Source: Synechococcus sp. BO 8801 | Lineage (GTDB): Bacteria; Cyanobacteriota; Cyanobacteriia; PCC-6307; Cyanobiaceae | Direction: 5' to 3' | Assembly (NCBI RefSeq): GCF_002252675.1 | Contig: NZ_NQKY01000003.1 | Coordinates: 1-64,000, forward strand | DNA length: 64,000 nucleotides | Shown here: piece by piece, positions 48,650 through 51,111 of the stretch | Position numbering within the stretch: the first letter of the stretch is position 1 | Layout of the letters: every line of letters begins with the position of its first letter | Position numbers and translations under genes: made by a program | The notes under the pieces: model-generated | What the model saw: only the letters and a program-made list of their open reading frames with translations | Databases searched by the model: none | What the model was told of the DNA's origin: nothing

Positions 48650-49588
48650 ATGTTCATCAGCGTCGTCATCCCCACCTACAACCGTCTGCCGATCCTGCGC
48701 CAGTGCCTGCAGGCCCTGGAGCTCCAGGAGATCGACGGCCCCCTGCAGGCCTACGAGGTGGTGCTGGTGGACGACGGCTCCACCGACGACACGGTGCGCT
48801 GGCTGGATGCCCATGCCACCGCCTTCCCCCATCTGCGCCTGATCCGCCAGGACCACGGCGGCCCCGCCGAGGGGCGCAACCGCGGCGTGGAGGAGGCCCG
48901 TGGCGATGTGATCGTCTTCATCGACAGTGATCTGGTGGTGACGGAGCGGTTCCTGCTGCACCACGCCACGGCCCTAGCGCGGGCCTGGCAGGAGAGCGGC
49001 GACCGGCTCTGCTTCACCTACGGCGCCGTGATCAACACCCACAACTTCGAAGCGCCCACGTCGGAGCCCCACAAACTGCGGGATCTCTCCTGGGCCTACT
49101 TCGCCACCGGCAACGTGGCGATCGACCGCCGGGTGCTGGAGCAGTCGGGCCTGTTCGACACCGGCTTCCGCCTCTACGGCTGGGAGGATCTGGAGCTCGG
49201 GGAACGGCTGCGCCGCATGGGCGTGCGGCTGGTGCGCTGCCCCGAGGCCGTGGGCTACCACTGGCACCCGCCCCTGAGCCTCGAGCAGATCCCCGATCTG
49301 GTGCGGGTGGAGCGGGAACGGGCCAAGATGGGCCTGGTCTTTTACCGCAAGCACCCCACCCGGCGGGTGCGCTTCATCATCCAGTACACCTGGCTGCATC
49401 TGGCGCTCTGGGAGCTGCTCACCCTCGGCGGCCTGATCAATGAACGGACCCTGCGGCCCCTGCTGCGCTGGCTGATCCGCCACGGCAAGGCGGGGCTGGC
49501 GATGGAGCTGCTGCGGCTGCCCCTCAACCGCTTCGGGGTGAGGGCCCTCCATGCCGAAGCCCGCCAGCAGGGCCATTTGGTAGGTTGA
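48650..49588 (+). CDS. Family 2 glycosyltransferase
   Basis: A 312-residue GT-A fold enzyme: ISVVIPTYNRLPILRQCLQ, the VDDGSTDDT nucleotide motif, FIDSDL as DXD equivalent, and a second domain with GWEDLELGERLRRMG (galactosyltransferase-like C-terminus). It transfers a sugar from a nucleotide donor to an unknown acceptor, probably for envelope polysaccharide. ATG 48650 follows a short tandem repeat. Confidence 0.9.
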   Translation: MFISVVIPTYNRLPILRQCLQALELQEIDGPLQAYEVVLVDDGSTDDTVRWLDAHATAFPHLRLIRQDHGGPAEGRNRGVEEARGDVIVFIDSDLVVTERFLLHHATALARAWQESGDRLCFTYGAVINTHNFEAPTSEPHKLRDLSWAYFATGNVAIDRRVLEQSGLFDTGFRLYGWEDLELGERLRRMGVRLVRCPEAVGYHWHPPLSLEQIPDLVRVERERAKMGLVFYRKHPTRRVRFIIQYTWLHLALWELLTLGGLINERTLRPLLRWLIRHGKAGLAMELLRLPLNRFGVRALHAEARQQGHLVG

Positions 49589-49609
49589 CCCGGTCACACC
49601 AACACCGCA

Positions 49610-49684
49610 CACCTGCACGTTTCGGGTGATCCGCCCCCCTTTCCTGGGAGCGGCATCCCTGGCAGGTGGAGGCCAACCCGAAAC
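49610..49684 (+). promoter_or_regulatory. Structured rpsB leader with interlocked stems
   Basis: Two perfect stems interlock: CACCTGC (49610-49616) with GCAGGTG (49662-49668), and GTTTCGGGT (49619-49627) with ACCCGAAAC (49676-49684). The order a-b-a'-b' gives either a pseudoknot or two exclusive folds. A further hairpin (CCGC 49631-49634 with GCGG 49650-49653) nests between. The last arm ends 12 bases before the rpsB ATG, and there is no obvious Shine-Dalgarno sequence. Autogenous control by S2 is known in E. coli; the same role here is inferred. Confidence 0.65.
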
Positions 49685-49696
49685 CCCACAACCCCA

Positions 49697-50413
49697 ATGG
49701 CTGTCGTCACTCTCGCCGAGATGATGGAAGCTGGTGCCCACTTCGGACACCAGACCCGTCGCTGGAATCCCAAGATGTCGCGCTACATCTATTGCGCGCG
49801 CAACGGAGTCCACATCATCGATCTCGTGCAGACCGCCGTCTGCATGAACAACGCCTACAAATGGACCCGCAGTGCCGCTCGCAGCGGCAAGCGCTTCCTG
49901 TTCGTCGGCACCAAGAAGCAGGCCTCCGAGGTCATCGCCCAGGAAGCCGCCCGCTGCGGCGCTTCCTACGTCAACCAGCGATGGCTGGGCGGCATGCTCA
50001 CCAACTGGAGCACGATGCGGGCCCGCATCGACCGCCTCAAGGACCTGGAGCGCATGGAGTCCTCCGGTGCCATCGCCATGCGGCCCAAGAAGGAAGCCGC
50101 CGTGCTGCGGCGTGAGCTCGACCGTCTGCAGAAGTATCTGGGCGGCCTCAAGAACATGCGCCGCCTGCCCGATGTGGTGGTGCTGGTGGATCAGCGCCGC
50201 GAGACCAACGCCGTGCTCGAGTGCCGCAAGCTCGACATCCCCCTGGTGTCGATGCTTGACACCAACTGCGATCCCGATCTCTGCGACGTTCCCATCCCCT
50301 GCAACGACGACGCCGTGCGTTCCGTGCAACTGGTGCTGGGCCGGCTGGCGGATGCCATCAATGAAGGCCGCCATGGAGCGCAGGATCAGCGCGGCGGCGA
50401 CGACGACGCCTGA
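49697..50413 (+). CDS. rpsB: 30S ribosomal protein S2
   Basis: 238 residues. [39 protein letters not shown] and [19 protein letters not shown] are family signatures. Part of the classic rpsB-tsf pair. Preceded by a structured leader. Confidence 0.98.
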
Positions 50414-50421
50414 GCCGTTCT

Positions 50422-50450
50422 CTCCCTCCCGACCTCCCTCCCTCCCGACC
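50422..50450 (+). repeat. 13-nt direct repeat abutting the tsf start
   Basis: CTCCCTCCCGACC occurs at 50422-50434 and 50438-50450 (16-base period); the second copy ends one base before the tsf ATG. Confidence 0.85.
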
Positions 50451-50451
50451 C

Positions 50452-51111
50452 ATGGCTGAGATCACAGCGAAGCTCGTCAAGGAACTGCGCGACAAGACCG
50501 GCGCCGGCATGATGGACTGCAAGAAGGCCCTCACCGAGTCCGGTGGGGATGCCACCAAGGCCGCCGAATGGCTGCGCCAGAAGGGCATCGCCACCGCCGA
50601 GAAGAAGGCCGGCCGTACGGCGGCCGAAGGGGCCGTCGGCAGCTACATCCACACCGGTGCCCGCGTCGGCGTGCTGGTGGAGGTGAACTGCGAGACCGAC
50701 TTCGTGGCCCGCGGCGAACTCTTCCAGGAGCTGGTGCGCAACGTGGCGATGCAGATCGCCGCCTGCCCCAACGTGGAATACGTCAGCACCGACGACATCC
50801 CCCCCGAAGTGGCGGAGCGCGAGAAGTCCATCGAGATGGGTCGCGACGATCTCGCCGGCAAGAAGGAGGAGATGAAGGTCAAGATCGTGGCGGGGCGCAT
50901 CGGCAAGCGCCTCAAGGAACTGGCCCTGATGGACCAGCCCTTCATCCGCGACAACACCGTGACCGTCGGTGAGATGGTCAAGTCGGCCGCCGGCAAGACC
51001 GGTGAGAACATCCGGGTGCGCCGCTTCACCCGCTACACCCTCGGTGAGGGCATTGAGGTGGAGCAGTCGGATTTCGCCGCTGAAGTGGCGGCGATGGGCA
51101 AGGCGGCCTGA
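50452..51111 (+). CDS. tsf: Elongation factor Ts
   Basis: A 219-residue nucleotide-exchange factor for EF-Tu. [24 protein letters not shown] (UBA domain) and [14 protein letters not shown] are diagnostic. Single exchange domain as in short bacterial EF-Ts. 38 bases after rpsB. Confidence 0.97.

Follow-up and report, generated by a model that had tools for sequence, protein, structure and literature searches.

The rpsB motif (Rfam RF01815) comprises the stem P1, the elements P2 and P3, both variable, and a pseudoknot in which J2-3 pairs with the 3′ extension that follows P1 (PMC2704228). It has been published with its pseudoknot, predicted at 5 bp for most groups, for Cyanobacteria among others, in which P2 is short or absent (PMC2704228, Meyer et al. 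2009). In Escherichia coli, rpsB is repressed by ribosomal protein S2 via its leader, with S1 assisting, and the ribosome-binding site lies outside the operator; how S2 blocks initiation there was called unclear in a 2024 review (PMC10931766). The leader analysed here lies in a window (the whole stretch of DNA under analysis, 64,000 nt long) from a genome that its nearest rpsB relatives identify as that of a Cyanobium-type picocyanobacterium. Judged from its sequence, this leader represents with near certainty the form that the rpsB motif, already described in 2009, takes in Cyanobacteria; the element is a known kind of system and no new one.

Organization of the rpsB leader

The leader spans approximately 108 nt on the forward strand, between a glycosyltransferase-like open reading frame that ends at 49588 and the rpsB ATG at 49697. 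Comparison of leaders revealed a conserved unpaired 5′ flank of P1, CCGCA (49605–49609), which takes the form CGCA or CACA in almost every leader and CACA in E. coli. It is followed by the P1 5′ strand (a, CACCTGC, 49610–49616) and, after a gap of only 2 nt, by the pseudoknot 5′ strand (b, GTTTCGGGT, 49619–49627), which corresponds to J2-3 of the rpsB motif (PMC2704228). The P3 hairpin (49628–49657), assigned by folding, precedes the P1 3′ strand (a′, GCAGGTG, 49662–49668). Downstream of P1 lie the junction GAGGCCA (49669–49675), conserved in the leader comparison and sharing GUGGAGGC with E. coli, the pseudoknot 3′ strand (b′, ACCCGAAAC, 49676–49684) and a C/A-rich spacer without a Shine-Dalgarno sequence (49685–49696). 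All four strands were assigned from sequence and covariation, and their a-b-a′-b′ order defines a pseudoknot.

The first-pass annotation had described perfect 7-bp and 9-bp stems interlocked in this order, a third hairpin inside the pseudoknot, and a last arm placed just 5′ of an rpsB start devoid of a Shine-Dalgarno sequence. Each of these features was found in the window: the hairpin between b and a′ folds at −13.4 kcal/mol, b′ ends 12 nt before the ATG, and none of the strings GGAG, GAGG or AGGA occurs within 22 nt of the start. The GGAGG at 49668–49672 was rejected as a Shine-Dalgarno sequence, as it lies 24 nt from the AUG, belongs to a junction common with E. coli and reads GGTGG in some relatives.

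The downstream gene rpsB (49697–50413, forward strand), identified by translation and homologues, encodes S2, the presumed repressor and target. It is followed by tsf (50452–51111, forward strand; identified by translation), in a gene order identical to that of E. coli. The gap between both genes (50414–50451) contains a pyrimidine-rich run (CTCCCTCCCGACC), and tsf has no Shine-Dalgarno sequence upstream. Further upstream, TTTGGTAGGTT (49576–49586, forward strand) is a possible extended −10 promoter element, assigned at low confidence from its recurrence in relatives: strings of the TTTGATA, TTTGGTA or TTTGTTA type are found at the same place upstream of picocyanobacterial leaders. The candidate element shares bases with the stop codon of the glycosyltransferase-like frame in the window, and a sigma-70 consensus scan returned no match.

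Comparison with the rpsB motif and the E. coli operator

As in the described motif (PMC2704228; RF01815), the element is located upstream of rpsB, at the same place as in relatives, and comprises P1 and a variable P3, with P3 following J2-3 and preceding the P1 3′ strand, and with P2 absent or very short. The pairing of J2-3 with the extension after P1 is likewise present and in the same order (GUUUCGGGU/ACCCGAAAC). The picocyanobacterial form differs from the motif in its 9-bp pseudoknot, in the lack of a Shine-Dalgarno sequence and in scoring below the Rfam gathering threshold. With the E. coli rpsB–tsf leader, which is the S2 operator (RF00127, t44), it shares CACAC at the entry of P1 and GUGGAGGC..AACCC after P1, and the GGGGU/ACCCC pseudoknot and downstream tsf of E. 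coli have their counterparts in the window. Unlike the window, the E. coli leader has a hairpin-like (P2-like) insert before the pseudoknot strand and a Shine-Dalgarno sequence, and its pseudoknot lies approximately 20 nt from the AUG, compared with 12 nt here.

The Rfam t44 model aligned in full length and in register to the window (CACAC...GUGGAGGC.UAAC) with 15.0 bits, compared with a gathering score of 44 for RF00127, which is a detection threshold rather than a structural feature. In the other cyanobacterial leaders, on the rpsB strand, RF00127 scored at most 34.7 bits and RF01815 at most 31.2 bits, and the picocyanobacterial leader L125 and that of Synechococcus WH7803 (L065) reached 27.8 and 24.6 bits with RF00127. 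No cyanobacterial leader scanned attained the gathering score of these models, so that the curated Rfam cut-offs miss an element whose two stems are both backed by covariation. Matches to mir-296, Tymo_tRNA-like and other Rfam families at relaxed thresholds in the leader were taken as chance.

In 2 of 74 non-picocyanobacterial leaders (L178 and L181), P1 is separated from the pseudoknot strand by a long P2-like insert of 23–36 nt, so the absence of P2 does not extend to all Cyanobacteria.

Conservation and covariation

Leaders of rpsB were gathered from 80 genome contigs, together with 42 genomes from the genus and 146 from the class. All usable leaders, from 34 cyanobacterial families, carried the element, and the 196 long enough for testing were all anchored, with the element at the same place (196/196). 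Anchoring required GGGT and ACCC, and no usable leader lacked either string. Four poorly anchored rows were left out and two were corrected by hand, and the covariation set comprised 81 distinct combinations in a gapless alignment.

Across these 81 distinct sequences, 97.4% of the P1 cells were paired, with two-sided changes at seven of eight pairs, as exemplified by CACCTGC/GCAGGTG, CACCCGC/GCGGGTG and CATCCAGG/CCTGGATG. The pseudoknot was paired in 87.5% of cells, with two-sided changes at five of nine pairs across Cyanobacteria (UUCGGGU/ACCCGAA, CUACGGGU/ACCCGUAG and AUCGGGU/ACCCGAU), and its GGGU/ACCC core was invariant, which is partly by construction owing to the strings required for anchoring. 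Taken together, both stems showed two-sided changes at 12 pairs and 92.2% of paired cells, compared with 79.4% in shuffles. The covariation score was 0.423 versus 0.179 in shuffles, none of 500 shuffles scored as high, and the score fell to 0.14 or less in a control in which the columns were slid by 1–3 positions. When P1 strands were exchanged between species, 5.98 of eight pairs formed, compared with 7.47 of eight for the native strands.

Picocyanobacterial leaders share an almost unchanged block, CCGCACACCTGC..GUUUCGGGUG..GGCAGGUGGAGGC.AACCCGAAAC, between whose parts the hairpin varies freely. The first-pass annotation had proposed compensatory changes in both stems as support for the structure. 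They were found for both stems across Cyanobacteria and for P1 even within picocyanobacteria, but not for the pseudoknot stem within the latter group, where it is invariant except for one G-U and shows no two-sided change. The structure in picocyanobacteria therefore rests on P1 covariation and on the other cyanobacteria. P3 varies there in both sequence and length, with 18–138 nt from b to a′, and has a mean energy of −19.1 kcal/mol, compared with −11.8 kcal/mol in shuffles (102 picocyanobacterial leaders).

It is this comparative evidence, rather than the complementarity itself, that indicates from the sequences that the structure is real. Perfect stems of this kind had initially been considered unlikely by chance, which was overstated: when the leader was shuffled 100,000 times with its dinucleotides preserved, 230 of the products (0.23%) contained an interlocked 7 + 9-bp pair, and 19 clusters of 108-nt tiles with such a pair, this leader included, were found in the 64-kb window, so complementarity alone is weak evidence. 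Single-strand folding was uninformative, since the fold energy of the region is ordinary (z = −0.28) and a pseudoknot cannot form in such a calculation.

The picocyanobacterial variant

Exactly nine pseudoknot pairs and no Shine-Dalgarno sequence were found in all 102 distinct picocyanobacterial leaders, whereas all 74 leaders from other cyanobacteria have four to nine pairs and a Shine-Dalgarno sequence just after the pseudoknot. A median of 3 nt separates the ACCC core from the start of the latter, which lies partly inside the pseudoknot stem in 24 of these 74 leaders. The GC-rich 9-bp stem of picocyanobacteria has a calculated energy of −13.0 kcal/mol. Shine-Dalgarno usage, sampled in the S10–spc region with starts assigned by alignment, amounted to 8–9 of 19 genes in three picocyanobacteria, compared with 12–14 of 19–20 genes in four other cyanobacteria. 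As usage is lower there too, the complete loss at rpsB among the leaders sampled fits a general trend.

This variant is a modest addition to the known motif. It is conceivable, though on balance doubtful, that the S2 operator was rebuilt in picocyanobacteria as a Shine-Dalgarno-independent switch: the Shine-Dalgarno sequence would have been lost, fixed extra pairs would have come to lie over the same positions, and RNA structure alone, read via S2 and S1, would set rpsB translation. The paired change of a longer pseudoknot and a missing Shine-Dalgarno sequence provides a natural test of the S2 initiation block.

Proposed mechanism and alternative explanations

Overall, the leader is best explained, and very probably so, as an rpsB-motif operator through which S2 would control its own operon, with the pseudoknot blocking initiation. 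Covariation, the match to the rpsB motif and the S2-repressed E. coli counterpart support, by analogy, the S2 autoregulatory element or translational switch suggested in the first-pass annotation. Such an S2 feedback operator is predicted in every testable cyanobacterial rpsB leader, including those of Prochlorococcus and marine Synechococcus. P1 and P3 would hold strand GUUUCGGGU for pairing with ACCCGAAAC just after P1, a pairing backed by covariation. Once S2 exceeds the needs of 30S assembly, it would bind the pseudoknot, probably together with S1, and stabilise it, as expected from homology with E. coli. The stabilised fold would then block rpsB initiation and lower the output of both S2 and EF-Ts. 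The pseudoknot would thereby represent the closed state. Its 3′ strand stops 12 nt short of the AUG, inside the stretch that the 30S subunit must occupy, and would thus exclude the latter.

An S2-independent role of the pseudoknot as a constitutive translation-initiation or mRNA-stability element, which in picocyanobacteria would dock the ribosome in place of a Shine-Dalgarno sequence, is improbable but deserves consideration. In picocyanobacteria, the stem is not only long and invariant but stable enough that it may form without S2, which would argue for a constitutive structure, and its presence coincides with Shine-Dalgarno loss in every one of the 102 leaders. Yet the parts and conserved nucleotides are identical to those of the S2-repressed E. 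coli operator, and other cyanobacteria place the same fold against or over the Shine-Dalgarno sequence, as expected for a repressive structure.

Leader structures can act as attenuators or anti-terminators in ribosomal-protein operons of other bacteria. Such transcription-level control of the rpsB–tsf operon is very unlikely here, as a search of 49400–49760 for terminator-like hairpins followed by a T run found none, the fold ends close to the AUG, and the E. coli counterpart controls translation. That the complementarity arose by chance in a leader rich in GC, as the shuffle frequency, the 19 places in the window and the ordinary fold energy might suggest, is hardly credible and was rejected owing to conservation with two-sided changes over the 81 distinct sequences.

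Covariance-model searches and neighbouring matches

A covariance model built from 36 cyanobacterial leaders scored the window at 52.4 bits and retrieved the E. coli leader with 16.6 bits (E = 0.007), although the P1 5′ strand was misplaced in the latter. In 144 of the 151 genomes of the family, it detected a single copy, located at rpsB. Among the seven genomes without a match, six have an element whose P3 is very long, and the rpsB match is absent from the assembly in the remaining one. The only extra match, a candidate further copy (26 bits) in a single genome, was rejected because it is antisense inside an open reading frame.

In two genomes, rpsB has a tRNA gene as its neighbour (L190, 37–110, and L192, 129–202, both on the minus strand; approximately 60 bits). 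Beside the tRNA match, L192 contains two matches to RF01371, a CRISPR direct-repeat family, at 1–31 and 70–106 (27 and 36 bits, compared with a threshold of 38), which are possibly repeats or chance.
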